Source of the DNA: Scatophagus argus
Lineage: Eukaryota; Chordata; Actinopteri; Scatophagidae
Assembly: GCF_020382885.2 (NCBI RefSeq)
Contig: NC_058516.1
Span: forward strand, 5,178,594 to 5,242,593
Reading direction: 5' to 3'
Length of the DNA stretch: 64,000 nt
Every line of letters begins with the position of its first letter. The first letter of the stretch is position 1. A program made the position numbers and the translations under genes. A model generated the notes under the pieces. That model saw only the letters and a program-made list of their open reading frames with translations, did not search any database and had not been told where the DNA came from. Positions 27,740 to 62,055 of the stretch are shown one piece after another.

Positions 27740-27774
<35 letters not shown>

Positions 27775-30700: not shown

Positions 30701-31188
30701 GCTGGCGTCGTTGTGGGAGGCGGTGATCTGCACGTTGCCGTCCTGGTGGCTGATCACGATGGGGGCGCTCTGTTTGTACGCCAGCAGGACCTTGCTGTGC
30801 TTGTTGAGCCAGCGCACCTGCCGGACGGTGTCGCCTGTCGCCGTGGTGATGTTGCAGCCGAGCAGGAGGGGACGACCTGCCTCTGCTCTCACGCTGGCAG
30901 GAGCCGTGACCTTACCTGAGTGCAGAGACCACAGCACATTTAATATTAATGTCACCTACAGTTCAGAAGGCTGCTTTAACGCTTCCCATCCTTGTTGTGG
31001 CCTGGCAAAATGCAGTGGCAGAAAAGTGGAGTTAAAGTTTAGAGTATCTGAAATCCTCTTAAAATGAGTCACAGTCAGCTGACGGATGCAAACAGCACCG
31101 ACTGGACGCAGAGCGTACCTTGCGTCCTGGAAACAGCCGCCCCGATGATCCAGATGAGCAGACAAATGGGCAGGGCAGGTCCACTCAT
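26286..31188 (-). CDS. CD200-like (OX-2) membrane glycoprotein 1 with V-V-C ectodomain
   Basis: Probable ligand-type Ig glycoprotein. Exons: 31188-31119, 30915-30592, 30106-29777, 27360-27076, 26470-26286; internal joins are all phase 1 and give 397 aa. Leader 1-23. Two V domains follow: V1 (24-131) with GCNITT, VRWLN and DDEGCYRCVF ending TCISIT, and V2 (132-241) with LSCWYN, VLWRK and EDEACYTCEFHTYPDG ending ACLSVY. The extra Cys in the last strand is a CD200 signature. A C2 domain (242-336) has ANCTAQS and SVKCIV. The membrane helix (341-361) runs into the Cys-rich LCVCLCKCFVC and a 36-residue tail. A possible donor at 26368 would end the last exon earlier; I read through it because the frame closes cleanly at 26286. 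Mammalian CD200 has only V-C, so the extra V is unusual. Confidence 0.82.
27741..27772. repeat. AC microsatellite
   Basis: About sixteen AC units, in intron 3 of CD200-like gene 1. A shorter run lies at 28121-28140. Confidence 0.9.
28730..29632 (+). mobile_element. 5'-truncated L1-type LINE, 3' end with target-site duplications
   Basis: Inserted in intron 3 of CD200-like gene 1, antisense to it. It encodes the C-terminal part of an L1 ORF2, including WREHCWKNIVRFFKTP and the Cys-rich motif CWRQCG...NHSHIFWEC (C-x3-C-x8-H-x4-C), with the frame closing at 29263. A 3' UTR, AATAAA and a short A-rich tail follow. The element is bounded by a perfect 15-base direct repeat, AGAAAACACCAATTC, at 28715-28729 and 29633-29647. 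Perfect repeats and an undamaged frame suggest a fairly recent insertion. It has no reverse transcriptase domain and cannot move by itself. Confidence 0.85.
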
Positions 31189-34104
31189 ATCGCACACTCA
31201 GGCAGGGTTGCTAAATTCCTGATCCAGTATCACATCCAGGCTGCAGCTGCAAAAACACACACACACACACACCGTCAGAGAGCTCCACACCTCAAACCGA
31301 CTTGTGGTTACTGAGTGAAAACGTGAGTGGAGGAGCCGTGGTGGAGGAGTACCCCGTCAGCTGTCCGGCGATGGGACTTGTGGAGCTGGTGGTGGTGGTC
31401 AGCACAGTCGGAGCTGCATCTTAATGGCACACTGTCTGCTGTGCTGTCTGCTGTGACGGGAAACACGAAGCCAGAGGATGACGTGAGCAGTGACAGCATC
31501 GACTCGCAGCATCATCACAGGTCACACACTGCACTCGGCGGCGAACGACTTTGGGAAGTTTGTGCACCTGATGTCAGCTGTTGCCACGGTAGGATGATAT
31601 TTAAACAACAACAACAACAACTTCTGCTGCTGCTGATTCAACAGACATCACCCGCGGGGTCTAATGGAGGCTTTACAAGTTAAGACATAGCATGCGCTTT
31701 GCCCCTGGCAAACCCATAATCACCACTTCGACGATTTCAAAACCTGGAAACCTGAAACCCAACCTCAGAAGCATTACGGCGGTCGGGAGATGAGGCAAGG
31801 AGACGTTAGTCATGCAGGTAATCGTAACCTGAGTGAGACTGAGAGTGCGGACAGCAGCCAAGCACAGCGGCTGGTCGGCTGTAAACATCACAGAGCGTCA
31901 AAGCTCCTGTGTGTCCGGAAGACGCCGGGTGGAAATCTACTTCACATCCTGGACAAAAAAAAAGGTGGAAACAGGGGGCATCAAGACTTTGATCAGACTC
32001 TACAAGTGAACTGAAGTGGACTTGACTGGGAGAGAAAAACCACAAGAGAGACCGGGTCCAGACCTCAGAGGTTTATGGGCGTTATTTGCTCTTTTACAGC
32101 TCCAACCATCTGGCTTTAAACATGCAGCCTGCTCCTGTTGGGCAACAGTTTAATCCCTTTTCCACTACAAAACACCACTGATGTCTGACAGTGGGCCACA
32201 ACAAATCACACTCAATCAGTCAGTCAAACCACAGCACACACAGACAAATGTGAGCTTCCAAATTTGGTGCTTTTGTCAGACGAGTTCACAACTTATGAAA
32301 GCGAGCTCACCAAGAGAGGGAATGAAACCTGAGCCCAAATCCTAAAGATCTGCCCCTGCATCCAGATGTGAGCCGAAACACTGCTGCCACAGCTGGTTCA
32401 GACCACGGGGACAGATGTTGTGGGAGATTTCTTTAACAGATTGCTGTTTTATTGTTTTAACCCAATCAGAGGAGGAGAAAAGAGGTTTTTCATGAACCCA
32501 TTTTGTGGTTGTAAATCTTCCTCCAACAGATTTACCACACAGAAATCAGGAAAACTGATAAAACTGAAAACCTTAGACAGCACTTCAGAAATGTTCATGC
32601 AAAAGAGTGCAAGTGAGTTTCATAAAGCTTTAAGTGAATATAAACTTGTTTTCACTCGGTTCACTGCACCTTACATTTTATTTTAATTTGCATAACAGTC
32701 AGCACTGCTTACATGTTGTATATACATTTTTATATTGCTTTCTATATTGCTATTTTTGCATAATTTGTACAGAGGTGTAATGCTGCTGCTGCACTGTAAT
32801 TTACCAGCCCGGGATCAATAAAGCCTATCGATCTATCTATTTCTTGTTTGGCTCAAACACGTGGAGTCTATGAACTCACAGTGAAGAAACAACGCTACAA
32901 AAACACGTTTAAATTATCCACATTTTCATCGACACATCCTGAAGAGTTTCACCACAACAAGTCAGACAAACTAAATCAGCTTGGTCGTTTCTGCGTTAAA
33001 CAGGAAAGTCTCCAACTCCACGGAAACTTCCAAGTTATTCCGAGCGCGTTTGGCTGCAGCTAAAAGCGACCGTCGTGATAAAAAGGACAAAAAGGACAAC
33101 AAAACTCACCCGCTGACAGATGATGGCACAAAACACAGTCAGCTCTCAGCCCTGGAGTCAGGTGTTGTGAGACTGCGGCACACAAATCCACAGTTCATTG
33201 ATTTAAAGCGCGACTGAAGTGGGTTGAGCTCCTGCAAAACAAGCGTCAAATCTTCTGCAGTCAGCGTGAGGAAAGCACGACCTCTAGTGGCCACGACGTG
33301 CACCTTCAGCCGCACACCTGCTGCATGCGAGCAGCGCATTCCCAGGGACAAATCAAATTATTATTACACAAAATTAATCAGTCACAAAATCAACAGAGTT
33401 TTTCCACTGGCACACTTTCTGGTGTGGAAACGTTAAAATATATCGTGAAGGTTTGAAGAAAAGAAGTAAAAGAACTTTTTCATAATTCAACTGAAAGACA
33501 ACAGCAGACATGTCAACAAAGGGGAGGCGTGGATTTAGAAACTGTTTCAACTGCTTTTATTCAAACAAAAGTACACAATATTAAGCCATCATGTGTACAT
33601 TCCAACGTGCACATTGAAAATTTATATATATACATTCATTTATATATATATACAATATTATATAAAATTAAATGAAAACACTTCATTGGAGCAATGAAAC
33701 ATTCCTCATTCACACTCATATTCACATGCACACAATCTGCTGGGAGTTCATCTTTGCCAAAATTCAGTTTCTTTAAAAAATTTTTATTTACAAAAACCAG
33801 CAGCAGATTTATAACCTACAAACAAACAAAACTCGTGGACATCTTGATGCAGCTGTGGATTAAGGTAAAATATCACAAACAAACACATGTTGCAAAATAC
33901 TTGGCACATAATCACATAACAAAATGATCATGTATAATAAACAAATACAAAAACATAAAACCTGTAGTGTGCATGAATGGTTCCGATCCCACTGAGCTGC
34001 CCTGACAGACGGATCCCAGCGTCGCTTCCTTCGCCACATCAGACCTCATGCTGGCACTCGCGTCTTGTTGATTATTCGCCGTGTCGCTAAGTAATCTACT
34101 TTGG
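31189..34104. other. Spacer between CD200-like genes 1 and 2
   Basis: Upstream region of CD200-like gene 1 and 3' region of gene 2. It holds an (ACA)n run near 31607-31620, a LINE tail (separate entry) and AATAAA on the minus strand near 33783 that could serve gene 2. No exon recognised. Confidence 0.45.
32690..32845 (+). mobile_element. LINE/SINE 3' tail
   Basis: Ends GGGATCAATAAAGCCTATC followed by (ATCT)n, the usual end of several teleost non-LTR elements. Only the tail is present, so the family is not assigned. Confidence 0.5.
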
Positions 34105-35898
34105 TCAGAAGATGATGTGTCGCTGACATTTTGCAGTCGAAGACGGGCTGACACAAGTTTGGTTTTTCTCAGGAGTTATCCGAAGTCTCACGCTTTCGTG
34201 AGAAAGCTTCCTTCAAATGAAAACAAGACATCAGTCAGTTTCTAAATGAGCCCATCAAGTTTGTAGGGAAAGCAAAAACAAACAAACTAAATGAATAAAG
34301 TGTCTTACTTAGGAGTGAATCCAGCTGGTGTTTGGGTCCTGGTCTCCTCAGAGTCCCTCTGTGACAGACTGAAGGAGGGCAGACGTTTATCAGTTGTTTG
34401 GGTTTGTTTCTGAAAAGACGTCGGTCAGTTTTGAACACATGAGACCCTGGTATCACAACCAGACAGATGCTGAGTTGACAGTTAAATCACCTGTTCCAAT
34501 ATTTCCATGTAAGCAGGACTGCGAAGACGCCGACAGCAGTGAAACAAACACAGGAAAACCCGACGAGCAACATGAAGTCTGTGAGAAAAGAGGTGACGTC
34601 AACACTCAGCTTTCAGAAAGAAGCTACAGATCAAATGATGATATCGACTTGAGACGCGCCCAAAGTTTACTCACACACGTCGTTGTTGTCAGATCCAGAT
34701 TGATACGACTCTGAAAAACAAAAGACAGAAGACACGAGCTGTAAAGTCATCATCGCTCTGAAAAAGATCTGTGGCTTTGGAGGAGTTTCTCACCATCAGC
34801 AGACGACCGTTTCACCCCGGGGACCATCAGAAACCTCTCGAGCTGAGGACCATCAAACACTCGCACGACACATCCAACCTGAGTGCTGTTGTCACGGATA
34901 CCTGACAGCACAGCCGTCGTGGTGACGGTGACCGTACCGTTGGTGTTGGTGACCCTGACAGAGCTGGAGTTCGACAGGTGGACGTCTCGCGTCAGGACTC
35001 TCAATGTGACGGCGGGATCGGGTCGACCTGTGGCCGAGCAGGACACGACTGCCTCCTCAGAGGAGTTTGTCCGTCCAACGTGCAGAGCAGGTTCATGCAG
35101 CTCTGCAGAGAAAACAGACCCAAAGGTGTCAGGAAGACCAAAGCGCTCAGCTCAACTGGTTTAAAGTGTAAGTCACCACAATGATGAAGACAGGATCAGA
35201 TGTGTGCTTCTCACCACAGAGCTGAAGGCAGGTTGCAGCAGTGAAAACACCTTCAGGGTAGGTGTTAAACATGCAGTGATAGCAGCCTTCATCCTCCTCT
35301 GACACCTTCTTGATAACTATGGAGCTGCTCTGCAGTCCTGCAGCCGTGAACTCCACTTTGTCTCTGACGTCAGAACTCACTCTTTCACCGAAGCGACTGG
35401 TGTAAGAAGCAAGACTCTTCTCCCCCCGTGATGAAAGCTTCTTCCATGTGACTTGAACAACATCTTTAGACTGCAGGAGCTGACAGCTGAAATGAGCGTC
35501 GTCGCCCACTTCTGCCCTCACAATCCGCCGAGTCTCAATCGGAGAAGTCAGACCTGCAGGGAGTCATATGGTGCTTATAACGAGCCGGAACGCACAAGTC
35601 CAACTCGGTGATGAAGCCTGATTTATTTAGGTGTTTTGATTTGTAAAATATTCATATGAATTAAAATGCAAATGTATTGGCAGGAGCTCGTGTGATCGTT
35701 AACGGTTAGCCAAGAACACTGAGCTAAAGACCAAGCGGAAGTCACACAGATGGAGCCTTTATTCAGTTTGATAAAAGTAAATTACACTAAATTAAATTAC
35801 AGTAAATTGCTTGTGTAGAATCGTTTCTTGTCGTCTGTCTTACCTGTGGAGAAGACTCCAAACACAGGGAGTAAATATATCACCCCACCTCGCGTCAT
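34105..35898 (-). CDS. CD200-like membrane glycoprotein 2
   Basis: Exons: 35898-35844, 35553-35215, 35102-34794, 34710-34675, 34578-34491, 34368-34309, 34210-34105; the total is 993 nt, or 330 aa, with every phase consistent. Leader 1-18. The V domain (19-131) has HFSCQLL, QVTWKK and EEDEGCYHCMFNTYPEG, ending with the CD200-type Cys in TCLQLC. The C2 domain (132-234) has VVSCSATGRPDPAV and VGCVVRVFDG with several N-glycosylation sites. A 12-residue stalk, a membrane helix (about 248-270) and a 55-residue tail without tyrosine motifs follow. The V-C plan and short tail fit CD200 itself, a ligand rather than a signalling receptor. The last two exons rest on splice signals and frame only; an in-frame stop after 34309 would give a shorter form if the intron is retained. 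Confidence 0.85.
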
Positions 35899-37350
35899 CT
35901 TTATTTATCTATGACTCAAATTGAAAAGCCCGCTACTTTCCCAGCATGCAATTCGAGAATCCGGTCAAGCCAGCCTCCCCAGTGTTTTCGAGTTCGAAGC
36001 GATTTCACAATAAAAGCAGTGTCCGGGCAGGTTCAGTCATTAAATGAATAAAATAGATATAATAACTCCTTCCTTATGAACGAATAAATAAATCAAGATG
36101 AATAAAATGTAAACAAAATTAATATAATTAGTCAATATATCATCAAATTGGTTGAATCAAATTCGTTGTGCTATTTCAAGGAAACTTCCTGTCGCCACTT
36201 TCCAATTTCACTTCAGGACGAATGTCACGCAATAACTTACAGGAAGTTCTGATCTAGCATTACAAAATAAAAGTTCTCTAAAAACTTCATTTTTCCTCTG
36301 TTTTCAGAGATGCTGTGAAAAGGAAACACCCTGTTGCCAGTGACCAATTTCACCTCAGGATGACAGTAGCCCACCCCAGGGTGTCGCACAATCAGTTCCA
36401 GGAAGTTCTGATGCAGCATTTCAAAATAAAGGCCATCCAATCACAGAGACGCACCTGCGATTTTAAAAATCGTTGTTTCTGAAGTTCAACTCATATAAAC
36501 CACAGCAACAAAAACATCACCAAGAAATCGTAACATTCAATCCTGACATTTTAATTCAGTGAATAAATATAAACACGAACATGAAAAGAGGTCAGAGAAT
36601 AAATTATTTAAATCGCATGGACTAAAAGATTCATCACAGAAAGACTCTGGACATCATGCCCAGGTTAACATCACAGTTACAACCATACAGTAAATTTGTA
36701 TTTTTAATTATGTGAGCAATAAATAACATGAACAAATGCAAACACTGGACATTAAAGTGCAAAAATTATCAGCAAACTTGGAGTACAATAAGCAAAAAAT
36801 AAAGTCTTCATATCATATATATCTAATTTATATAAGGTATCTGTACTAATTTTGGTCCACCAGGTGGCACTATAGTCACAGTTTGCCTCTTGCAGGACAT
36901 TTCCTTGTTTTCAGCTCCTTTACCAGCTTGCTGCTGCTAATGTTATGGTTCTCTCAACCAAACCTTTACTGTTGCACTGCGCTGCAACGAATGAAACAGT
37001 TTACTTAACTGCCTAAGAGTTTTATTCTCATACATAACTCTTTCTGCTCCACTGGAAAATGTAAACCTTTGACTTCCTTTGTCTCACAGTTGCTTAGAGA
37101 CGACTCTCGTCATACTCCTGTATAAACAGAGGTTGTGGTTCCTGCACGTTTGTATTGCCACGAACAAGCCATTTGCTTGAAGCCCAGTGAAAAGAGCAAA
37201 GTTAAAGTGCAGTTTGCAAGAAATATCAATTAGACAGGATAATGGAGCTCAGCCTTTAGCTTATTTCACTATCACATTGCTGAAATTCAGGCAGGAGATT
37301 TTTATTTTACAATCCTTCCTTGGTCAGATGTGCGAAGGACCAAATACTCG
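35899..37350. other. Spacer between CD200-like genes 2 and 3
   Basis: Contains the promoter of gene 2, with CTACTTTCCCAGCATGC at about 35932-35948 resembling a ZNF143/SBS element. It also holds the imperfect tandem repeat listed separately and, at 37301-37306, the AATAAA (minus) of gene 3. No further gene recognised. Confidence 0.5.
36179..36433. repeat. Imperfect tandem repeat, two units
   Basis: Two related units (36179-36272 and 36320-36433) share AAGGAAAC, CCAATTTCAC, CTCAGGA/TTCAGGA, CAGGAAGTTCTGAT and CAAAATAAA in the same order. They may be part of an older dispersed repeat. Confidence 0.6.
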
Positions 37351-40167
37351 TTAAACATTTTCACCTCTTCTGACGTCTTTTAACCTGCCAGGAAGAGAGA
37401 AAAATAGAGTTTACTTTACTGTGGGCAGGACATCTACTCATCATCTCTACATTTACTGCCTGGCTGAAAATATTTTGCATGGTGTTAGATATCTCACCTT
37501 TTTCGCTTTACTGCAGCAGCAACTGCGATGCAGGATATTAAAAAGACAGCACAGATCACAAGTGCGAGACCTATCGAAGACAGACTTTTCCCTGGAGAGA
37601 AACAACACAGGGTCAGTCAGTATAGAAAGAAGACAAATTACTATGTTCTCCAAAAAGAGGAAGGTGGGAAACTTCTGCTCTACTCTTACTTTTAAAATTC
37701 CCAGACGAATGACGTCTCCCCAGAGAGCCAGTATTTATCAATACATCTCACTGCACTATGACTCAGGGTTTTCATTAGTGTGAAACCTAGTGAGAAGCTG
37801 AAACTGAAACCCCTCAGTGTGTAACACCAGCTGACTCACAGGGACTGTCACTCTATTGCTTCAATTCTTCATTCACTGCATTCTTCAGACTACCTGATGA
37901 CTCTGATTTCAGGGACTTTTTTCATTCCCCGTTCAATGAACTCCTTGGTTATCATATTGTCACTTCAGCAACACCAATCTCCAGCCTACGTAGTTTACTT
38001 TGGATTGAGTACATTATGTAGGCTGTACTTTAGCTAACAAGCAAGTATTGACATAAGTTGTCCTTGGTGTGCTGACTGGCACAAAAAGATCAAACATAGC
38101 GCTTTAAAACTTGTTTTGATCCTGATATCTCACCCTGAAAAAGGTGTGATGGATGTAACCTTCTTGTTCCGCTATTTATCACTTCCTGCAGGTAAACAAT
38201 GATGCTTACTGCTGGGAATTTCCTTGGATAGCACTCTTCCAGTACACTAGCATGATGACAGTGTTGAGAATTCCTAGGCACTTCACTTCCTCAGAAACAG
38301 TTATGTAACGACACCCACTAGTAGGTGATAAAGAAATGACTGATATGCATACCTTCCTCTTCCTTGTTTGGCTTGTCAAGGCTCGGAGCATAATGAATCT
38401 CTTCCTGCCTTTCTCCCCTCGTTCCACTGTTCAGCTGGCAGACCACGTGTCCGGTCCAGCCCGGCTGTACCTGCACAGTGATGTTGCTGCTGCTGGTAAA
38501 TGTGTGGTCGCTGTTTTCTGCTGCAGTGGTTTGCGTTTGGCTCAAGAGGGAGACATCAGTTGAGAGGACCCACTTAATTGTTGGAGTTGGTTTACCCGTC
38601 GCAGAGCAGCTAAACACAAGCTTCTCTGTGTTTTCTCCCTCACTGCTGGCAGGTTGCACACCAGTTTCCACCTCAGATATCCCTTGAGAGAGAATAGATA
38701 CTCGTCACTTTAAGGGATGCAGCCAAAGAAAAAAATTCCAAATTTTAGGCTTCAAACACCCGATATTTTACCAATCTGAGTGTGCTTTCAGAACTTGAAA
38801 GTCCCTGTAGTTTACCTTGCACCGTGAGGCAAGTCTGTTTCCTTTTGGACCCATCAGGATACACATTGAAAGAGCAAATATAACAGCTGTCATCCTCCCA
38901 CGTTACATTCTTCAGAGTGATGGCTGTCGAGCTCAGCGATGCCTCAGTGAAGATCACTTTCCCCTGGTAGGGTTCATTAATTTGCTGTCCAAACCGTTTG
39001 CTGTAGGTTACCAGGTTCTCAATGGAGTCATCCTTGAAGTGTCTCTGCCATGTCACCTGGAGCACACCTGTCAGGAAGAGGGAACCCTCCAGTCAGTATT
39101 TACAGGTGAAACATCAAGCACTGCACTTTGGTGTTTGAGGTACTTTACAAGAGTATTTTATTTTCATGCCACCTTATACTTCTTCTACTTGATGTTTTGT
39201 TACATATCAAACTAAATTACAACATATATATCATATATATATATATATATTACATAAAATATGTTATCTATTGGGTTATAATATATATATAATTCAATTT
39301 CCCCCAGGGATCAGTAAAGTATTACTGATTTTGATCCTGATAAACACAGTTAGTGAATTAATTTACTATTTGACTGATGGAATATTAGTTGGCAACTATT
39401 CTGATCTTCGCTTCACAAATCTTTCATGCAAAAAAGCTTTGGTTCAGGCTTCACAGATGTTAAGATTTGCAGCTTTTCCTTTTGAATTATATCAACGATT
39501 TTAATGTAGTCCTTTACATAAACAGATTAAATTTAGCTCATCTAATTATATAACAGTATCAGTTCTCTGAAAGCCTGTTACTTCTAACAGTGTATTTTTA
39601 TACAGCAGCAGACAGCCTTCCGCCACTGGCACAGGAAACGCCCGCACCTGTGAGGTTGTGCGCTGCGCACCTGTAGTGCGCGTCGCCACCGTAGTCGGCT
39701 GATACGTCTCCGTGACCGGTGATCTGCGACGGCGAGGCTGAAAACAAACACAGAGTGAGGGTCAGCACACACTTCCGTACTTGTTATTCCGTTAAATAAA
39801 TTAAATGACAGCTCTTCAGCGCGAATGAAACGCCGATCGTGTCGGGTGTTCAATAATATAGCAGCGACTATTTTAAATAACGCAAATGTAGCCTGTAAAT
39901 TACATAAGCCTCGAGATAAAAGATACAACATAAGCTCAGCTGTTGAAGCAGCTAACAAACGACAAAAACAAAGAGCAAGAAAAGGTACAGACGGGCAGAG
40001 AAAATAAGAAAAATAATCAGAAATCGTCTACACGAAACGAAAACCGGAACATAAATAAATAAACTACATAAGAGCAATTACAGTCAAAAGTTAAATTACT
40101 ACTGCAGGCACTGGAGTCGCTTACCTTTGAACAGCAAACCGGATAATAATATGAGGACCCGCAACAT
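37351..40167 (-). CDS. CD200-like membrane glycoprotein 3 with split V domain
   Basis: Exons: 40167-40125, 39737-39648, 39067-38816, 38682-38353, 37591-37498, 37384-37351; total 843 nt, or 280 aa. Leader 1-14. The V domain (15-128) is coded by two exons joined in phase 1 between the strand-B Cys (HYRCAAHN) and the strand-C Trp (LQVTWQR). It continues with DDSCYICSFNVYPDG and ends TCLTVQ, the CD200-type Cys. The C2 domain (129-238) has VFSCSATGKPTPTIKW and HVVCQL. The membrane helix (about 244-264) is followed by a basic 11-residue end, RLKDVRRGENV, with no tyrosine. AATAAA (minus) lies 45 bases after the stop. This is again a ligand-type CD200 relative. Confidence 0.82.
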
Positions 40168-44993: not shown

Positions 44994-45653
44994 TTACATG
45001 GTAAGCCAAGAATAACTATGATGAATTATAATTAGAATGAATATGGCTCCGCCTGTGAGAACTGCTGGACTGCTGGCACGCTCACCCTCTGAAACGTTGT
45101 AAACAAACAAAATAAAGTCCTTGGCAGAAGAAGAAGCTGCTGGCTGCTCCACAGCTCGCAGTACCACGTGGTGTGCTGTTACTGGCACCTGCAAAACGAC
45201 ACGGTGGAAAACACCCACTTTGAATTTAACCAAAGTATGAGGAGAACCGGTCGAATATGTTCCTTCCACAGTGACATTCAAATGGAGAGTGTGTGTTCCC
45301 TTACGGTGTGAACACTCACAGGTGTAACCGGTCAGGTGCAGTCCGGTTCATGAAGCTCAAAGTCGACGACATCCCCGTTTCCCTCTGTGTGATGGCATCC
45401 GGTCTTCTCCCAACCGTTTTCACAGGAGTTGCTGCAATCAATCACAATTGGAAAACAAACAAACAAACAAACAAACACACAGATCACATTTTTAAATTCT
45501 ACTAGACTGACAGTAGAAAGTTAGAGAAAATCTTTAGTTGTCCACAGACAGGAAGATGAAAGAAAAACGACTTGCCGACCTTTGGTGACCTCTGCTGTCA
45601 ATGCACGCAGTTAGCGGCAGAAGCAGTACAAAGCACAGTTTCCATTCAGCCAT
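44994..45653 (-). pseudogene. Decayed copy A of the single-Ig receptor family
   Basis: The leader exon (45653-45590) is fine and encodes MAEWKLCFVLLLPLTACIDS, like its neighbours, but its donor is GTCACC instead of GTACTG/GTACAG. The Ig exon begins at 45431 with TPVKTVGRRPDA as in the other copies. About 145 nt are then missing from the middle of the domain, the frame shifts, and a stop is met before the F strand, whose CECSH is out of frame. The donor after VTVEG is changed from GGTAAG to GGAACA. A short remnant of the membrane exon ends at 44994. This is a host gene that has lost function. A later splice form that skips the Ig exon cannot be excluded. Confidence 0.75.
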
Positions 45654-46987
45654 ATTTGTGAACAAAGCAGCGTGCAGTATCCTGTGCTGAAGCTGCACCT
45701 GAACCTCAAACTCCCACAAACACATGAAAGGCATGTTGACTCTTCTGTAAAGGAAGTGCTGCTTTCACGTTAAGGCGCATGAAAGGTAATCAACGCACGA
45801 AGCACCTGGCACTGCTGATTCTCCAAACGTGGTGAATAACCAAATGAAAAAATGTAGGGATTTTATTATTATTATTATTATTCTTATGACTTGGGAACTC
45901 GTGCTTTTTAGACTAAATACGATCGCTTGTTGGAAAATACCCGCCCTGTGTGACAGATGACACGCATGACACAGCATGCTAAAATGAGAACTGAAACAGC
46001 ACGCAGCTATTGTCAGGTGTGAACACAAGCCGCAGTGCGTATTTCTACAATAAGACTGTGAGTGAGATAAAGTCCAGCGAACGTCACCCCCATCTGGCCA
46101 AAGATAGCGTCTCCTCAGCACCGCGTCCCGCTGCTGTGTGATCAGGCACCTGAGAGGACTGCTTCCTGCTGTGCAGCGACCATAAAACAGTTATCATCAT
46201 CATCATCATCATGGTGTCAGGGTCAAACACACACTGTCTTTGTGCTTACTTTCTGGACAGTTTGTGTGTGACACAGTGTGACACTGATATACGTTTGGTG
46301 TTTTTTTGAAGGGAGGGTGAATAAAAATAATTATAAAAAAAACAAAACAGAAAATAAAATTTAAACGTGCTTGTCAGAACAACACTCATTTCCCTCTGTA
46401 ATTTGGTGCTGAGGAATTAACTGGTCTTCGTCATTGGCTTCTCCTGTGAACTCAGTTTAAGTACAGCTGGTGAATGACTAATGCATCACACACTATATTA
46501 TAACACACCGAGTGAGTACATTTAATGTGACCAGCAGCAGGTTTCTGAGCCGTACAGAAAGGAAAACATCTTTACAGGATGTATTTTACAGAATAACGAT
46601 GCATTTACAGTCCAGCATGACACTCAGTAAGTCAGGTAACTTGGCAGAACACGACACTCTCGTCTTTGCTGACCCGGTTGTTAACTTCAAACAGCATCAG
46701 GGAAACTTTCAACCAGAGAGGGCAGCAGAAGCTATAGCTTGACAGCCTGGTGTGAAATCACACCTGAAACCGATTCTACAAAAAACATTTCCCGTCAGAC
46801 ACGCGGCATTTACACTCAACTCCGTGCAGAAATATTTATAACTGGGGGGCTCCTGCTGACGGATCTTCTGCAGCGCCTGCACAGGTAGCTGCTGTTGTGC
46901 GTAAACATGTCCCCAAGCGGGTTTAATTGCCACATCTATCTCAAACGCTTCAATAAGCCAAAAAATGCGTCATCTTGAATTTTTGAT
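45654..46987. other. Spacer between copies A and B
   Basis: Holds the promoter of copy A, including AGGAAGTG at 45751-45758, a (TTA)n run near 45862-45880, a (CAT)n run near 46195-46212 and the 3' region of copy B. No exon recognised. Confidence 0.5.
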
Positions 46988-48597
46988 TCAAATGTTTTCA
47001 TAGATTTTGCAATTCTGATCAGTCTCTCCATCTGTTTCCTGTTCCAAACAGGAAGTCGATACGCTGCTGCCAGCTGAACTCCTCTTGGCATCCTCTTGCT
47101 GCAGCAGTGAGGAGATGTTCTGGTACAGATCGCATTCTGGAAGCTGGAGGCTTTTGTGGAACTCATATTGCCCATCCTGGTTCAAAGGAAACATCAAAAT
47201 CATGTTTAAAAAGTCCAGCCACATTAGATCCCAGCCTGATTTCTCTGTGCCGTGTTCTGTCAGGGCCTTTTCATGCACGTGTGCAGCTATTCCTTCTGGT
47301 CATTAAGGGATCAGAGAACATATAAAATATAAATATGTGCTTTTACATGAACTTCATGTGGGGCGCTCTCATTTGACATGAGAAACTAAACATCAACGCT
47401 CGGTTAGGACAGAATACAAAGTCCACCTTGGAGGGGTTGTGGCGGCCGAGTGGTTAACACCATACTACACTAAACACGTACGTTTGTCGCTTTTACACCA
47501 ACCCACACCTTTTCCCTCACAGCTTCCTGTTTGCATGGGAACTATTTCTTCAAATAATATAAAAAGGCCTCGGTCAGCGCGCTGAATTTACCGTACGTAC
47601 AAGCAGTCGTGTTGAAACAGCTATTTAAAACAGTTCAAGGCAGAGACAGCAGAACATGCAGCTCACCACAGAGGACGGGGTTTCACAGGCAGACAAGCCA
47701 GGCTCTTCTGACCTCCTGCCCTGTCTGGAAGAAACACGTCAAATGTTAGAAGTGGAACACAAAATACACATAAACGAAAATCACTGATTTACTGATTCAT
47801 AATTCTTTATTTCTCATCGAGAGTCAAAAGCGTTCAGTCTCAGTCACAATTCATCACCTGCGGTGTTTTGTTCTCCAGATACATCCGAGGACAAGTCCGA
47901 GCACAGCAGTAAATGTGGCGACAGCCACGACGATGGACCATATCCAGGAATAACTGCTGCTGAGCTGCACTTCATATGATGCTGAATTTGTTAACACACA
48001 ATGGGAGATAATCTGAGCCCCAACAGAGTGCAGAAAAGGCAACTGGTGAAAATAAATCAAACATTTACCCTCCACGATGATGTTATGATGGGAACTGTAT
48101 GTTCCCTCAGGATGTGAACACTCGCAGGTGTAGTTCCCACTGTCCTCAGGTGTTAATTCGGTCAGGTGGAGAAATGCAACCTGATTCTTTGCCACGAGTT
48201 TGAACCTGGAGTCGCATTCATTCACAAAGCCCCATCTGTGCTGATACAGCAGACGGCACTTACCCCCCCTCGTCCTTCCTGTGCTGATCTCACAGATAAC
48301 CATGAGGATATTCACCAGTTCTTTGGTGCATATTTGAACCACGTCTGGTTCTTTGGCAGTGGTTCTCACAACAGTCACTGTAAGCAACAGGAGGAGAGCT
48401 TCTCAATGACTTTTTGTGATCTTTTTTCATACATTTTTCGATTTCTGAGCGCGCTAGAAAAAGAAAGATGATGCACAATAGACAACTGAAAAACCAGCTA
48501 ACTCGGGACAAACTGAATGTAATGAGGAGCTCACAGTACCTTCAGAGTCAAAGCACAGACACAGTGGCAGAAGAAGAACAAGTTTCCATTGATCCAT
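46988..48597 (-). CDS. Single-Ig-domain membrane receptor, copy B
   Basis: Exons: 48597-48540, 48377-48069, 47981-47858, 47724-47667, 47176-46988; 245 aa with all phases consistent. The leader starts MDQWKLVLLLPL. The Ig domain (20-122) has Cys in QICTKE, VICEI, GGKCRLLYQ, NECDSRF and YTCECS, with no Trp after the strand-B Cys. The usual D-x-G-x-Y-x-C is present as DSGNYTCEC. Membrane helix about 134-157. The tail has Y187 (QYEFHK), Y201 (DLYQNI) and Y242 (KIYENI); the last two are YxN/YxxI motifs suited to SH2 docking, for example by Grb2. The family is not one I can name. Shared leader, exon phases and Ig pattern tie it to copies A, C, D and E. Confidence 0.8.
47434..47460 (+). repeat. tRNA-Ser-like 5' half remnant
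   Basis: GGCGGCCGAGTGGTTAA resembles the D-arm and box A of a serine or leucine tRNA, but no anticodon or T arm follows. It is probably the broken head of a tRNA-derived element in the last intron of copy B. Confidence 0.35.
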
Positions 48598-50623
48598 AAC
48601 TGCAGAGAGAACAACTGCTGTCACTACAGAGCACACTGAGGAGAGGGAGGTTAACAGTGATGCACCCCTTTTGCTGTCTCATCCTTTAAATAAGCACAAC
48701 TCCTTGTAAGTTAATGAGCTCACTGTGACTAACGAAAAAAACCCCAAAACACACCACTTCCTGTGCTTTCAATTTAAGACCCCCCAGTTAGGACCGTTCA
48801 AGTGAGGGCCGTTTGCAAGAACATATTAACACGTACAGAGATGAACACGTCCATAACGATGACGGGTCACTGCACTCACGTCCTGTTGTGTGGAAGTGGG
48901 TTAAATCAGCAGAGGCAAAGCTGAAGGAAGTGCATCATGAGTCATCAAACATGAAGACTAATCTCAGCATTGTGGAAAGACACCAAAGTAGACAGAAGCT
49001 GGATTTTGTTTTCCCCCCCGCAAATTAAGTGTGAGTTTGAGAAAGTTCGATAACAAAGCATCAGCTGATATGTCACGACTTGTTTTGGAGGAGGACATGA
49101 CACTGGTCAGAATAACACGCTCACAGTAGCTCCCTACCCTCCAGATGTTGGCAGAGGTTGGTCTGAACGCTGTCTGTCCTGAGTGAGACCATTAACCAGG
49201 ACAAGAACAACCGGCTCAGTCCAAAGGCAGAGAGGCGACCCAACAGGAGCTGAGGGCGGCACAGAAGAAGACAACAGCGACAACAGGAACATTAGGGATT
49301 ACAGTCAGAGGGATGTCAGAAATAATTTGGACATCAACAGTCAATAAATGGATCCTTAGTCCTCCGTATTTAAAAGCGCCTGTTGATTTACAGTTCAAAA
49401 GGTTAATTATGTGATTAGTAGTACACACCACTATTATAACAAAGCTTATGAGGACACAACTCGCCGTAGTGTGAAAGTATTGATAGACTGACATTCAGTC
49501 TATCAAGAGTTTCCTCCAAGAATCGGCTAACGTTTGTGATGAGCATAAAAAAACGATGCTTTTGCTTTTGTGTTGCGATGATCTTCTAAACTGCTCTGCT
49601 TCTTGCCGGGCTGTGCTTGCAGACTGCATAGCATGAGAAATCAGGGGGCTTGATTTGTGCAAAGCAGCTCAAGATGATCTGCCACAAGAGCACACAAAAG
49701 CTCAGTTTGCTTTTGTTGTCAATGAGTTTATGTAAGTGTGGCAATCAGGCTTCTGTCAACCTTCAATTAGTCTCTGCTGGTAAATATTCCCCTTAAAAAT
49801 GTGTCTGCATACAAACTTTATTCTTAACGGAAAGCAGTCAGGTGTTCAAACGTAGTTAAATATAAATGTAGAACAGAGATAAAAAGGCTAAACAACAGTC
49901 ACAAGCAGGACTGGATGTACCGAGGTCATCTGTTTGGGTAAAAGGTTCTTACTGCCGACTTCCTGTGCAGGCCTGACGACGACGCGTATCTGCGCCGTCA
50001 TGGAGGCAGCAGAGAAAAACTCCGGGCAGGTTAAAGCGAGCACAGGAAGCTCATGCAGGAAGCTGACTGTGACTTGGATGATACGTCTCATGAATTCACC
50101 TTGCAGTTTACAGCCAGACCTTTACAGGAATTTGCATCGAAGGCAATACACGACGGCATGTTTGTTTCAAATAAAACATTGATTTATATATTTATTGGGT
50201 GGCTGCCATCAAACGAACATGTGTCATTTTCGTTTTAACCATTAATTTATTAGATAATTTATTCTGGTCATCATATTTGTCAGACAGTAGATTACATTGA
50301 ATGCACTATGTCCTCTTTTCCTACCTTATGAGGACTTGTATATAGCTGTATATTGTACTGTGTTTACTGTACTTTGTAAATTGTTAATTTATTTTACTTC
50401 TATATTTTTTTGTAACTGTTTTTGCACACTTTTTTCACTCTTTTCTGTTCTTGTGAGCTGCCATGACAAGTGAATTTCCCCACTGCGGGATAAGATAAGT
50501 TCATCTTATCTTATCTTATTTTTTAAAAAAATACTAAAACTTACAAAAGGAACAATATATATACACACATATAAATAAAATCATTCGGTAGGAAAACATC
50601 TATCACAAAAAAATAGGGCACAA
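48598..50623. other. Spacer between copies B and C
   Basis: Promoter side of copy B, with an inverted AGGAAGTG (CACTTCCT at 48754-48761), then unassigned sequence and a LINE tail near copy C. No exon recognised. Confidence 0.5.
50290..50521 (+). mobile_element. LINE 3' UTR fragment
   Basis: Runs TTGTGAGCTGCCATGACAAG, then GTGAATTTCCCCACTGCGGG and (ATCTT)n, the typical 3' end of a teleost non-LTR retrotransposon. No coding part remains. Family not assigned. Confidence 0.55.
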
Positions 50624-51886
50624 TTACACATTTGTGTCATTAGTGTTGACATAAACGCATGTGACAGTAGATGAATAAAGCTCATTCTGCCTCTGCAGGA
50701 AGGTTTCGTATGGCTCGATGTTTTCTTGTCCCTGCAAAAGAACAGAAAACGTTTTAAGTAAAAGTTGTCCTCATAGTTGTGTCTGCCATTAAGTGAGCAA
50801 AAGCAGGTGCAACATGTTGGTGAACGGCACCGTGTTCGGACGACTGGTCAGCAGTTCCAGTTGTGCTCTGTTGGGTAGAAGGACAACAAGTGATTAATTC
50901 ACTTTCCCATGTGTGAGAACAAAATTTGTACTATTTAAATGTGCATACTTAAAGCAATTATGCTTTATTTCAGATTACCCATGTTGAGTTTTTCTGTTGA
51001 TGACTCCCAGGATAACTCCAGTTATAACGACGAATAAACACACACCAATTAAAACATTAACGAGGGGCATTTTGGCAGAGCTGCTTTCAGGTTCTTCCTC
51101 TGAGACAACGTGAAGAAAAATCTTTGTCAGAAAAGCAGAACAGGTAAGCACTTTATCAGAAACACTGAAGACTGTACAAGTGGCACGTTGTACTGTCAGT
51201 AAGTGGAAAACACCCTGTACTCATCTTTCGGTCTTACTGGACCAGCAAGACCGAAAGATGACGAGTAAAACACAAACGTTATAAATAGTTCAGTCATTCA
51301 CCTTCTGCAGTGATATTCAGATGCCTCACTGTCCAGGTGAATCCCTCAGCATTTGAACATTGACAGGTGTAGTTCCCGCTGTCCTGTGGTGTTAACCCGG
51401 TCAGGTGAAGAAACACAGTCTGATTGTCTGTCCCGAGTTTGAATCTGGGGTCACACTTGTTCTCGTAAACTTCTGTTCCGTATCGATAGGCCAGACGACA
51501 CATTTCTCCTCTGTTTTTCTCTGTCCTGATCTCACAAACTATTAGCAGGATAAGATTCTGAGTTTCATTGGTGCAAACTGGATTGACATCTGTCGCTGTC
51601 CCATCTCCTTTTACAAGCAGCTGCCGAACCTCTGCAATCAATACATTAAAATCAAAAACGAACACAGAATGAAACAGTCGACGAGTTTGCACGTTCACTT
51701 TTTATGCACGACCAGAGAGAACAAATTACACAAAGAAAATAATCTGCTGCTCGTTGAATTTAGAAGCATCACAGAACCACATTTTGCTCATGTTAAGCGT
51801 GTTAAAAGTAGCTCCTCTACAGTACCTGTGCCAGCACAAAAAGGCAGCATCACAAGCAGAGCAAAAGACAGTTTCCATCTCTCCAT
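50624..51886 (-). CDS. Single-Ig-domain membrane receptor, copy C
   Basis: Exons: 51886-51826, 51631-51302, 51099-50979, 50867-50831, 50731-50624; 218 aa. The leader is MERWKLSFALLVMLPFCAG. The Ig domain (21-130) has PVCTNE, LIVCEIRTE, GEMCRLAYRYG, NKCDPRF and the F strand DSGNYTCQCS, with the same odd Cys layout as copy B. Membrane helix about 141-164. The tail has Y191 (IEPYETF), Y202 (NELYSST) and Y210 (CVYVNT). Y191 and Y202 are 11 apart, as in copies D and E, but lack the hydrophobic +3 residue of a proper ITAM in the second half. Y210 is a YxN motif. The short fourth exon uses donor GTGCCG, the least certain join. Confidence 0.76.
51221..51261. repeat. Perfect 15-bp inverted repeat
   Basis: TCATCTTTCGGTCTT (51221-51235) and its exact reverse complement (51247-51261) are separated by an 11-base loop. 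It lies 40 bases downstream of the Ig exon donor of copy C, inside intron 2. Confidence 0.9.
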
Positions 51887-52415
51887 ACTGGTCCAGACCT
51901 CGAATAAAAAGCTACTGCTGGCAGCATCCAGTATAATGTAACACAGACAGAAAGACAGACAGTCCCCCTTTGCAATGTTTTTCAGCCCCACAGACCTCAA
52001 ATTCTCAGTTCTCTCAGAGGTCGGAGCTGCTGTGAAGTCTTCTAAAAAGGAAGTGCTGCTGCAGGGTCTCTGCCTTCATGTCAAGTCACTCTAAAAGAGG
52101 AGACAGGCAGCACACAACCCAATCAAAGACCCTTCAGCTCATACACAGTGCTCGCAAAATGAGGCAATGTGGCCACAGGTTGGATATTTCTTTACTCTAC
52201 GGCCACCCCGGGGTTCCATACACTTTTAAATTAGGAATTAATCACCTCCAACAACACACTTTGGCTGATATGGTGGATTTCCAGGCACTTCAGTATTATA
52301 AAGAGTCAAGTTATACTGAAGCTTCCAGGGAAGTCTAATTCAGGCACACTGATTTTGCACATGAACAAAAGAAGTCCACGTGTTGACCGTCACATGTATC
52401 ATCTCCATCTTTGAC
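51887..52415. other. Promoter region of copy C and 3' side of copy D
   Basis: Contains AGGAAGTG at 52048-52055, about 160 bases upstream of the copy C start codon. Nothing else recognised. Confidence 0.5.
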
Positions 52416-53692
52416 TTATATGGTTTCACATATTGTGTAAATTGGATGAAGACCCTCTTTGCCATCTGCTTCCTGATGAATCACTGCATAGACGTGAGCT
52501 GGATCAGAATCAGCAGCTTCAGGGCGACCAAAGGAAACGGTATGGTAGACGTCACCGAGCGGCTGCTGAAGGCTTACGTAGGGCTCATCTTGGTCCTACC
52601 GAAAGAAAACAAAAAGTCGCAGCACGAGACACCACACACACTGAGAAAGAGAAGAGAAAACTACGCTATGCTCACCAAGAAACGTGGACTTGCATATCTG
52701 AGCTCAGATGTGCCTGAGTCTGTTTCTTCTCTGTGAAAACAAATGAACGCCACAGTTAAATCCAGGAGGGATTTCAGAACTATTTGTCACTATTCAGATC
52801 CTGTACTTCAGATCCTCTACAACCTGCAGGCGGATGAGATGGAGCAAACCACAATCCATAAACCTCAAAAAGACATACTCCCGAGTACATTTTCATTCGT
52901 AAAGAGAAAATAAGAACATTTCTGTACCGAGGAACAGCTGGAGTTCCTAATCACTACACACTAAAAGACAAAACACAAACATGAAACCTTTAGTCAGAGT
53001 TTCTCACCTTGGATGGCTCCTTCTCAGGATATGACCACAGGTTATCCCAGCTGTAACCACGAACGCAGCAGCAGCAGCACAGAGAGCGACGGTGACAGCT
53101 GAAATGACCTTTGAGCTGTCCTCTTCATCTGCTAAACACAGTCAAGAAAGGAGATCAAACTGGATTCAGCGCCTGCTGCCATGCTGTTGTTGATCAAACA
53201 AACTTACCTTCCACAGTGACGGCGAGATGGGTCACATGCGTTGCTCTTTGATACGAACACTCGCAGGTGTAATTCCCACTGTCTAGTGGGGTTAAAGTGG
53301 ACAGGTGGATAAATACGGTCTGATTGTCATGTGTCAGAGTGAACCTGGAGTCACATTCATGGTCAAACTGCTCGTCGCACACATACAGCAGACAACACTC
53401 CTTCCCTCGGTGTCTCTCTGTGCTGATCCTACACGTTACAAAGACAATCGAACCCGAGTTTTCACTCGCGCACACCGGAGTGACGTCTGGTTGTCTCCTG
53501 ATGGTTTTCACAACAGTCTCTGCAAACCACAAGAAGCAGACGCTGAGAGACTCACGGCCGTCACACTGAGCATTTTGGTCAACAAACGAGCTGCATAAAT
53601 CACACATAAAGCAGGTTTTGTGCTGTACCTTTGCTGTCAGCGTGCACACACAGTGGCAGAAGCAGAACGAACCAGCGTTTCAGTCCATCCAT
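52416..53692 (-). CDS. Single-Ig-domain membrane receptor with ITAM-like tail, copy D
   Basis: Exons: 53692-53629, 53519-53208, 53128-53008, 52730-52676, 52595-52416; 243 aa with all phases consistent. The leader is MDGLKRWFVLLLPLCVHADS. The Ig domain (22-125) has PVCASE, FVTCRISTE, GKECCLLY, HECDSRF and DSGNYTCECS. The membrane helix (about 133-160) is Ala-rich and uncharged. The tail carries DEPYVSL, seven residues, then YHTV (Y190 and Y201), which fits the ITAM spacing D/E-x2-YxxL-x6-8-YxxI/L with Val at the end. Y220 (HVYAVI) and Y237 (PIYTIC) follow. A receptor with its own ITAM-like pair needs no charged adaptor contact, which agrees with the uncharged helix. Signalling is inferred only. 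Confidence 0.8.
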
Positions 53693-54384
53693 ACTGGGCC
53701 AAAGATCTGAAGCTGAACACACAAGACTGTGCTGACAGGAGGACTGACACGGCTGTCTGAAGTGTTCATATGACGCGCAGACGACAACCTCCAACGCTTC
53801 CTCCTTATTAAGGTTTAGTATAAGCTGATGTGACGCGTTACAAAATGGAAGTGAACCCGACTGCTTCTACTTTCAAGTTATAACATTATATCAGCTTTTC
53901 TCTGGGAAGCGACACATTAATCCTGACGGCAAAAGCTCACATTTAGAAAGTCGCTTTTAGCTGAACGACTCAGTGAGTATCTTGCAGTGAACTTTGAAGG
54001 GAACGACACTGGGATGTTTTGAAATATCTATTCAATATCTATTGGTCAATAAATGGTCAGAATTAACCGCTGCGTCTCACAGAGTTCGAGTCATTCATTT
54101 TATTTACTCATTGTCAAAAGCTTTTATTCTTCTACTCCACAAACATTTTCAAACGTTATGAAAATTAGCATCTTTTAATAATCAATAATCTGTCTACAGC
54201 TGTCAGCTGTATGTGACGGTGGTGCAATCCTCTACACTGTAAGGTTTAACTGATCGTAGCTAATGAGGAACAAAAGTAAATTTTATGACTCTGGTGAAGG
54301 TTTGATAAAATCAATAATAAAAAATGACTGAACGTGAAACAATTGCTGACAAGAGGATCACATTGGACACGACTGATGGTGACT
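53693..54384. other. Promoter region of copy D and 3' side of copy E
   Basis: TGGAAGTG at 53846-53853 is followed by ACTGCTTCTACTTTC, which also occurs upstream of copy E. No other element recognised. Confidence 0.5.
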
Positions 54385-56567
54385 TTAAATGACTTCATAG
54401 ACTGCATCGTTTACATCAGTTCTGATCTCTTTTGCACTGCTTTCCTGTTCCACATGGACATTCGCTTCGTTGTTTCTGGCTGAATTTATTTGTTGATGCG
54501 GCACTGACATCGTCTGGTAGAGATCACCTGCTGGCTGCCCAAGGCTTGTGTAGAGGTTATCAGGTTCATCTTTATCCTACATAAACATATAGATAGAGAC
54601 ATATCAGTGTGTCTCATAAGGAATCCTTGAGAAAGGTTTATGAACTGAAACTGCTGGCTGTGAGTGATAACAATAAATCAGGCACAGCGGCTTCACTTCT
54701 ACCTGCATTACAGGGAAGATCAGCTCTAACGCCTGCAGATATAAGATATGTCAGTAAATCATTAATAAAGGGTCTTTGGTTTCTTAAGTCATTATAAAAG
54801 TCAGTCAGGGGCTTTTCACAACATGACTAACAATCCAAAAGCTATAACTAATAACGGATTATAAATCATTTGCAGAGAACTGATATAATCATTCATTCGG
54901 ATGGTATTTTCAAAAACAAAAGAGCAGCTGTATTAGAAAGTGGTACATCAAATCCTACTGCATCAAGTTAAATGACACAGGTTGAAAAATGGTTTAGTAC
55001 AGTCCGGGAACCTGAGTCATACTGAAACCTGTTTCGCGTCATCTGACCTCATCTGACTCAAATCCCACCGCTCTCTCGCACAAAAGCTGCCACTGTCGGT
55101 CATCTATTTCTCCTTTCCTCAGCGTGTACGCCCATTGGCTACTTTAAAACGTTTATCCCCATCGCTCTCCTGAATGGCAATCAAGCGTGCCAATTGCAGC
55201 AGGATGGAAAAGGCTTTTTGGTTGGCCTAAACATAAAACAGGGCAAAATGTACCCCTCAGCGCAAAATGTACCCCTCAGCGCAAAATGAACCGAAAGTGA
55301 CATTTTGGTTTCAGCATCTCAGAGACGAGCCACCTTTGTCGATTTAAATACTGCATATCACGTGTAAAAACTGCCATCACACCATTCTCAGTTGGTATCT
55401 TCCACGCCAACTGGTGGATTTTGCGAGATTAAAAAGAAAAACTAAGCAAAACAAATACAGTAAGGCCAGAAGAATTGGACTGAGTCCTACTCTGACATTA
55501 AGCAAGAGTGTAATCTTTCCTCTTAACACTTACATACATTTGTCACCATCAGCTACAAGCCTGAAAGATGAATGTGAGCTCCTTACTAAGTTGAATTATA
55601 GGACAAAATAGTAGCACATTTCTCACCAACGAGCAGGAGGTTGCACACACAGATAATCCAGATGATCCGGACCTTGTGCTGCTTCTGAAAAATAAGAGAT
55701 TTGACACAAAACAAATCTCAGAGATCAAAGACAGGACAGCTCTTTTCTCAGTATACATCAACTTCTTCCAGATAAAGTGAGAATTTTTCACCTGCAGCAC
55801 TTTTTTCTCAGGGCGAGCCCAAGAACAACTCCACTCACAGCGGTGAGGGCAGTCCCACAACCAATCACGGTGATGTAGCTGAGCATTGTTAAGGCAGAGG
55901 TGCTGTTCTTGTCATCTCCTAAATGAATTTAAAAAAATTAACTGACCACTACGGCAGTGCTGGCATCTTCTCTGAATCTCTTTGACAATCAAGTCAAATC
56001 AACATACAACAACAGAGTCTGACAACTCGAGGCATCATGTATCTATATACACATAAATCATATTACCTTTCACGGTGACAATGAGATGGAGAACATCTGT
56101 TCCATGAGTGTGTGAACACTCACAGGTGTATTCCCCGCTATCCACAGGTGATAAGCCGCTCAGGTGGAGCAACACAGTCTCCTTTTCTGTCGTAAGCCTG
56201 AACCCGGAGCCACACTCGTGCACGAAGTCCTCTCCATGTTGATACAGCAGGCGACACTCCTCTCCCACGCTCCTCTCTGTTCTGATCTTACAGACTATGA
56301 ATGTGATGGTGTGCATTGTAGCAGAGGTGCATATCGGAGTAACATCTGGGTCTCTCCCAATGGTTTTCACGACAATCTCTGCAAATGTGAGGAAGGAGTG
56401 ACTACACCACGATGAGCACAGTAATTCATTTTAATTCAACTTGTTATTCAAACAAACAGCAAAATTGATCAATTATACGTAATGAAACTGTCCTGTACAG
56501 TACCTTTGGTGTCAAAACACAAACGCAGGGGTAGAAGCAGGACAAACCACATTTTCCATTCATCCAT
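54385..56567 (-). CDS. Single-Ig-domain membrane receptor with ITAM-like tail, copy E
   Basis: Exons: 56567-56504, 56378-56067, 55918-55792, 55684-55627, 54576-54385; 250 aa. The leader is MDEWKMWFVLLLPLRLCFDT. The Ig domain (22-125) has PICTSA, FIVCKIRTE, GEECRLLYQ, HECGSGF and DSGEYTCECS. Membrane helix about 137-160. The tail has DNLYTSL, seven residues, then YQTM (Y196 and Y207), the same ITAM-like arrangement as copy D, and ends AVYEVI (Y247). The large intron before the last exon (54577-55626) includes a 20-base tandem duplication of TACCCCTCAGCGCAAAATG near 55250-55289. Splice sites and phases match copy B exactly apart from small length differences, so the gene looks functional. Confidence 0.8.
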
Positions 56568-60821: not shown

Positions 60822-62055
60822 ATGGTAGGTGTCATCTCAGACGGCAACACAGAGAGGCACACCCATATTTAATTTAATTTAAGTTCCTTTATTAATCCCA
60901 AGCTGGGAAGTTACTTCACACTCACACACATGAGTGAAACACACAGGAGCAGAGGGCTGCATCAAGCGCCCGGGGAGCAGGGGAGTACCTTGCTCAAGGG
61001 CACATCAGCCGGCTAATGGAGGGTGGGGACATTATCACTCCACCACACACAAATTTTTCCTGCCCGTCCGGTGGGGGAATCGAACCAGCGACCTTCCGAT
61101 CACAAGCCGCTTCTCCAACTTCTAGGCCACGGCTGCCCCATTTTACTGATACCCACATGAAATTCTGCTGTTGTGCAGAGCTCCGCACACACTGAGCGAT
61201 ACAATAAAGCTTTTGAGTGAAACACACCACAGACCTCAGTGTGCAAAGGTAACCAGCACAGCAACGTTAATGTAAAGCCAACAAGAACAAGCGTGACACT
61301 CAATGATCTGAAACTAAGCGTGATCTTTGTGATTGGCAGGCAGACATAAGCACTGTCATGTCCTGGTTTTCCAGCCCCATGTACAGTCGCTACTGGCAGC
61401 ACTACCAGCAGGCCATGGCCTGGCACCAGAGACACAGGCGTGCCTACCGAAAGGCCTTGGAGACTGCCTATGGTGCCGACTACTGCCATCCCAGCAGCCA
61501 CGGGCGGTACGCAGACTGGCACGCCGGAGAGAGTGACAGCAGAGATGAGGAAGATGAGGACGAGGAGGAGAGCAGCTCCGACAGCGAGATCGAGTGCGAT
61601 GTCAGCAACATGGAGATCAGTGAGGAGCTTCGGCAGTACTTCGCCCAGACCGAGAAACACCGAGAGGAGCTAAGTAAGGGAACAAGTGTGGCTTTGTTGC
61701 CTTGAAAGTATCAGATCGAGGACTGACTAAATACTACAAGGTGAAAATATGGCCGACTGTGTATCTAAAAATAATCTGTTTTCCTGTCCTTGCAGAGAAG
61801 CAGCAGCAGATGGAAGCCGAGCAGCAGGACAGCTACGTGCCAGCCGATCAGGACCTGCGCGGCGTCTCCTGGCGAAGCAGCGCGGCCCCTCCCTCCGAGC
61901 GACCTGGTGAGAGACGCGGGGCCGAAATGAAGAAGCTGTACGGCGAGGATGCGGCCAAGATCCTGGCTATGGAGGCGGCAATGCAGCTCACTTTTGACAG
62001 AAACTGTGACCTCAAACAACCCAAGTACTGGCCTGTTATCCCACTGAAACTGTAA
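60822..62055 (+). CDS. gemin8: Gem-associated protein 8 (SMN complex)
   Basis: Component of the SMN complex that assembles spliceosomal snRNPs; in mammals it bridges SMN with Gemin6/7. Exons: 60822-60824 (ATG only), 61340-61673 and 61796-62055; 198 aa. The N-terminal [20 protein letters not shown] matches the conserved YARYWQHYHQAMAW block. An acidic stretch follows, then [32 protein letters not shown] and the conserved end [11 protein letters not shown]. The one-codon first exon is supported by a clean ATG/GTAGGT junction and by the frame joining ADISTVMSW; a downstream ATG at 61358 is the alternative start. AATAAA at 62887-62892 fits the 3' end. Confidence 0.93.
60869..61140 (-). mobile_element. 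tRNA-derived SINE in gemin8 intron 1
   Basis: Read on the minus strand it starts TGGGGCAGCCGTGGCCTAGA. It has a box A-like TGGCCTAGAAGTTGG (61116-61130) and a box B GGTTCGATTCC (61076-61086), then the common TGCCCTTGAGCAAGG body and an AATAAAGGAACTTAAATTA tail. Promoter boxes look intact. Confidence 0.75.

Follow-up and report, generated by a model that had tools for sequence, protein, structure and literature searches.

A 64,000-nucleotide stretch of the Scatophagus argus genome (contig NC_058516.1 of assembly GCF_020382885.2, positions 5,178,594 to 5,242,593, forward strand; the window) contains a cluster of five immunoglobulin (Ig) receptor genes, all on the minus strand and in head-to-tail order from 56567 to 44994. 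Gene models rebuilt with GT-AG introns give four intact genes (A to D) and one pseudogene (E). We consider the cluster likely to be a tandemly arranged branch, with one V domain per gene, of the lineage of the CD200 receptor (CD200R), lying beside probable CD200-like ligand genes. All four intact genes have the same plan—a leader exon, a single V-type Ig exon, an exon encoding the stalk and membrane span, a short exon, and a tail exon—with exon-end phases of 1, 1, 2 and 0 and an in-frame stop. An initial annotation of this DNA had described tandem same-strand genes with one dead copy, the five-exon plan with these phases, and one Ig domain with a tyrosine-bearing tail, and the rebuilt models agree, the last two features being present in 4/4 intact copies. 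The leader signature it gave (WK...LLLPL) holds only approximately; gene B has no WK, and gene C reads LLVMLP.

Gene A (54385..56567, 250 aa) comprises a leader exon at 56504-56567, a V exon at 56067-56378, a stalk and membrane-span exon at 55792-55918, a short exon at 55627-55684 and a tail exon at 54385-54576, whose product carries DNLYTSL-x7-YQTM and, at the C-terminus, AVYEVI. The corresponding exons of gene B (52416..53692, 243 aa) are at 53629-53692, 53208-53519 (V), 53008-53128, 52676-52730 and 52416-52595, and its tail has DEPYVSL-x7-YHTV together with LRYASP, HVYAVI and PIYTIC. Gene C (50624..51886, 218 aa) has exons at 51826-51886, 51302-51631 (V), 50979-51099, 50831-50867 and 50624-50731; the fourth ends in a weak donor (ACG|gtgccg), and the tail, EPYETFLQRQNELYSST, is of the cluster's tails the one most like that of CD200R. 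Gene D (46988..48597, 245 aa) has exons at 48540-48597, 48069-48377 (V), 47858-47981, 47667-47724 and 46988-47176; its tail contains CDLYQNI and a C-terminal KIYENI, and the tyrosine pair described below begins here with His instead of Tyr. Pseudogene E (44994..45653) retains an open leader exon (45590-45653), but its Ig exon (45430-45260) is out of frame and has lost its middle; a membrane-span remnant at 45086-44994 was assigned by eye.

The Ig exons of A-D are 47-56% identical in five pairs (all except B-C), and the open frames that hold them match the Pfam V-set model at E-values of 2.6e-6 to 7.9e-5, three of the four above the Pfam cut-off. Ratios of nonsynonymous to synonymous substitution (dN/dS) between these exons are 0.30-0.62 in all six pairs, from which we conclude that A-D are constrained. 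The tandem expansion with a dead copy stands as first described; its characterisation as fast-evolving finds no backing in dN/dS, no ratio being above 1. The best 21-residue hydrophobic window of each membrane span is without a charged residue. A tblastn search of the window for a further copy returned just weak matches to BTLA exons (E 0.4-0.6).

No one family is picked out by PDB searches, hhalign, a panel of hidden Markov models (HMMs) or pairwise shuffle Z-scores, and the assignment to the CD200R lineage is made because predicted fold, cysteine layout, nearest relative in the genome and location point together. One fold model each of gene A and gene D was compared by VIA (best 50 matches for each) and by Foldseek (best 50 for gene D). 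Structures of CD200R or CD200RLa are first for both models in both programs, by small margins; for gene A in Foldseek the TM-scores (TMq) are 0.69-0.78 for CD200R versus 0.50-0.58 for CTLA-4. Also high in the lists are JAML, CAR, nectin, CRIg, CTLA-4, BARF1 and nanobodies, and for gene D Foldseek places catfish NITR10 31st; a family absent from the lists may still be a candidate. The initial annotation had matched these genes to no named receptor family and looked to a fold comparison with TIGIT, CD28, CD300 and CD200R to decide; with CD200R first, CTLA-4 lower and TIGIT, for gene A, 38th and 48th in VIA, the fold lists join the cysteines, the genomic relative and the location in leaning towards the CD200R lineage instead.

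Hatherley et al. 2013 (PMC3664923) report that a disulfide links strand C' to the C''D loop in the V domain of CD200R. Cysteines are present at the matching places in 4/4 intact copies, and in the fold models they lie on the strand assigned as C' and ahead of strand D, as a putative disulfide pair. Their spacing was set against 34 comparison V domains, made up of 27 human reference sequences, 3 CD200R sequences from PDB alignments and 4 from the window; among these the spacing rule is satisfied only by CD200R (3/3), CTLA4 and ICOS. CD28 groups by eye with the latter two, the rule having misplaced its F cysteine. On this basis the cluster could instead belong, as a branch found in fish, to the CD28/CTLA-4/ICOS family, whose members are likewise single V domains without the strand-C Trp (the pair and the Trp both judged on reference sequences); CTLA-4 chains also appear in Foldseek from rank 6 for gene A (E 1.7e-4) and at rank 23 for gene D (6xy2), and gene A has a YxxM motif (YQTM). 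The C'/D spacing is, however, 14-15 in the cluster, nearer to the 15-16 of CD200R than to the 18-20 of CTLA4 and ICOS; the FG loops of A-D have no MYPPPY-type motif; CTLA-4 is not among the best 50 VIA matches for gene A or D, and its TM-scores for gene A are below those of CD200R; and the nearest relative in the genome, described below, carries a C2 exon of CD200R/nectin type. We regard membership of the CD28 family as very unlikely.

In the cluster V domains the strand-C Trp is replaced by Cys. A further Cys two residues past the F-strand Cys (C86 in the exon numbering of gene D), forming a CxC, is invariant in A-D and missing from all three CD200R chains; it may pair with the Cys that replaces the strand-C Trp.

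Searched against its own 571-Mb genome, the gene A Ig exon has only one other match at E<=0.001, a V exon on a contig designated C11. This exon is 20-28% identical to A-D among the matches listed, has the same cysteine pair and, as in the cluster, has Cys for the strand-C Trp. The C11 gene differs from the cluster genes in having a C2 exon after the V exon, and CD200R is the best fit to that exon. Because nectin-1 fits nearly equally well, a two-domain CD200R is favoured over a nectin-1-like protein for the C11 gene by a small margin only, judged from its exons. By eye, the C11 gene (L006, minus strand) appears to have an Arg in its membrane-span exon and no Tyr in its tail, a combination resembling activating or decoy members.

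The location is the fourth line of evidence. The CD200-like genes, the probable ligands, extend over 26286..39092 on the minus strand, with V exons at 29775-30098, 30590-30892, 35213-35539 and 38814-39065 and C2-type exons near 27077-27361, 34750-35151 and 38318-38704. For a profile of the four V exons (29.8-39.1 kb) the best PDB match is CD200/OX-2 (1.2e-19), with CD226 (4.9e-18) and nectin-3 (5.4e-18) close behind, and the three of these exons whose cysteines were compared have them at -3, 0 and +15, as in human CD200. A BTLA pair is on the plus strand at 12362..16881 (copy 1, V exon 12401-12712 and tail exon 13385-13705; copy 2, V exon 15729-16040), and the best PDB matches of a profile of its two V exons (12.4 and 15.7 kb) are five BTLA chains, at 5.1e-11 to 6.1e-9. 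The placing of the cluster beside BTLA and CD200 genes, as first annotated, is supported by the best PDB matches of both profiles. We take CD200, BTLA and CD200R to lie together at human 3q13. Titles cited in PMC7915401 locate CD200R to 3q12-13, with CD200 also on chromosome 3.

With BTLA genes in the window, a BTLA-, TIGIT- or CD160-like origin has also to be weighed, and an hhalign match to the window BTLA (P 1.4e-4) and the two TIGIT ranks in VIA speak for it. That hhalign match covers 36 columns and is confined to the strand E-F-G stretch, CD200R rows are placed higher in VIA, and the extra cysteines of BTLA and CD160 reference sequences are not a C'/D pair. The extra C/C' disulfide of BTLA and CD160 was considered for the cluster and rejected, the cysteines falling on the assigned C' and before D in the predicted strands. 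A TIGIT-like assignment, considered for PEGTY in gene D, was likewise dropped since the motif is missing from A, B and C; only gene D comes near the motif T(F/Y)P(D/E)G, as SHPEG. Such an origin is hardly credible.

Several results count against the CD200R assignment. PDB searches by phmmer and hmmsearch with the cluster Ig exons return generic Ig matches and no single family, and the tail exons of D and B find nothing relevant there. By hhalign the window BTLA scores 52.6%, the window CD200 28.1% and CD200R 20.8% (36, 58 and 74 columns); the E-values of these comparisons, like the blastp E-values of the C11 V exon, come from very small sets and are not database-level significance. THY1 outranks mouse CD200R1 in the panel HMM, where human CD200R1 is low, and CD7 and THY1 are first by pairwise shuffle Z, with human CD200R at 1.55. 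In VIA, a nanobody is level with the fourth CD200R row for gene D (10.2), JAML is level with the second CD200R row and above the third for gene A (12.1), and human CD200R1 is at rank 18 for gene A. In Foldseek, JAML and CAR (TMq up to 0.75) exceed two of the four CD200R rows for gene A (0.69 and 0.71), the only CD200R entries in the best 50 for gene D are of CD200RLa, and human CD200R1 is absent from the matches listed for either gene; moreover, only one of the five AlphaFold models of gene D is good (80 vs 42-57). For the C11 gene, the V exon reaches CD200R in the PDB only at E 0.067, and the C2 exon gives a tie (CD200R 1.5e-5, nectin-1 1.4e-5). Mammalian CD200R, unlike the cluster, retains the strand-C Trp, and its strand B ends with a second Cys. 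There is no C2 exon in A-D, the second introns being 148, 79, 202 and 87 bp, and NPxY occurs in 0/4 tails, gene C having NELY. Strict activation, inhibition or switch motifs (ITAM, ITIM, ITSM: immunoreceptor tyrosine-based activation, inhibition and switch motifs; ITAM as YxxL/I-x6-8-YxxL/I) are found in 0/4 tails, and the Pfam ITAM model matches 0/4, missing the DAP12 tail too.

Much of this would be expected of a separate fish family of the Ig superfamily, resembling CD200R by convergence or distant cousinship, with a nectin- or JAML-like C11 gene: the sequence searches alone name no family, the C2 domain and NPxY are missing, JAML, CAR and nectin are high in the fold lists, and nectin-1 C2 matches the C11 C2 exon almost as well. 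Two fold models, the cysteine layout, the location and, on C11, both the V exon and the C2 exon nevertheless lean one way, and we consider a separate family unlikely.

As a probable branch of the CD200R lineage, the cluster shares with CD200R and CD200RLa (mouse 4bfg, 4bfi and 4bfe, human 9gwt) the predicted V fold, the C'-C''D cysteine pair, CD200-like neighbours and membership of a multi-copy family; it differs in having no C2 domain, Cys at the strand-C Trp, no NPxY, ITAM-like tails in A, B and D, and uncharged membrane spans. Because the mammalian hallmarks C2 and NPxY are missing, we do not treat these genes as orthologues of CD200R1; a branch of its lineage with a single V domain is the probable placing. 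Unusual in the cluster are its one-domain architecture and the divergence of its tails; according to the available part of PMC7915401, isoform 3 of human CD200R1 is also without the C domain. Fish genes already bear CD200R names in the portions available of two reports—salmon 'CD200 receptor 1A-like' (PMC7593592) and sea bream cd200r1a (PMC9391476)—so the cluster genes may already carry that annotation. A search of the open literature (subscription journals and protein databases lay outside it) brought up such a family in neither titles nor abstracts.

The tail has five tyrosines in B and three in each of A, C and D. In A, B and C one pair is 11 residues apart, as are Y286 and Y297 of CD200R; around this pair the gene C tail resembles that of CD200R, and A, B and D are ITAM-like at the same place, as judged against reference tails. 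A relaxed ITAM (LIVMF) is present in two of the four tails, A and B, and is matched by 0.5% and 2.4% of shuffles, respectively; Pfam as a whole gives nothing relevant on the four tails. The portions available of PMC3664923 and PMC7915401 state that CD200-CD200R restrains myeloid cells and that CD200R signals through Dok adaptors without an ITIM. In our reading, the V domains of A-D would be displayed at the cell surface and bind CD200-family ligands on other cells, including the neighbouring CD200-like proteins, and Src-family kinases would phosphorylate the tail tyrosines. Gene C would then give CD200R-like inhibitory signals, and A and B, whose tails are ITAM-like and whose membrane span is uncharged, would be activating and signal on their own. 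With an inhibitory C and self-signalling A and B, the cluster possibly works as a paired inhibitory/activating set. We tentatively suggest, as a rather doubtful extension, that this set is self-contained, a single last-exon tyrosine pair having drifted between CD200R-type inhibitory (C) and ITAM-type activating (A and B, with a remnant in D) tails in a branch that lost C2 beside co-expanded ligands, so that DAP12 would be unnecessary for the activating members. If so, the drifted pair would suggest that the ITIM-less CD200R tail came from an ITAM-like ancestor. Probable ligands adjoining single-domain receptors, with tails of the CD200R-like and the ITAM-like kind side by side, would open the origin of the CD200R tail to testing, and with it that of activating/inhibitory pairs.

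Relatives of the cluster in viral, phage and prokaryote collections amount to one generic Ig match, to Ig-like repeats on a metagenome-assembled contig of Hydrogenedentota (L001:3801-4166). Within the CD200-like region (27077-30892, minus strand), the V exons at 30.6-30.9 and 29.8-30.1 kb are upstream of a single C2 exon at 27.1-27.4 kb, possibly because the protein is of V-V-C2 make-up or because one C2 exon has been lost. An open frame of 242 aa at 28535-29263 (plus strand) has no Pfam match at E<=0.01 and by eye is like the end of a LINE-type (long interspersed nuclear element) reverse transcriptase frame. The tail exon of BTLA copy 1 (12401-13705, plus strand) carries IVYAALNH and TSEYAAIRV. 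Copy 2 (15729-16881, plus strand) has a V exon 83% identical to that of copy 1 but lacks a matching tail within the window; it is possibly a partner with a short tail. On the right the cluster is flanked by GEMIN8 (61307..62055, plus strand).

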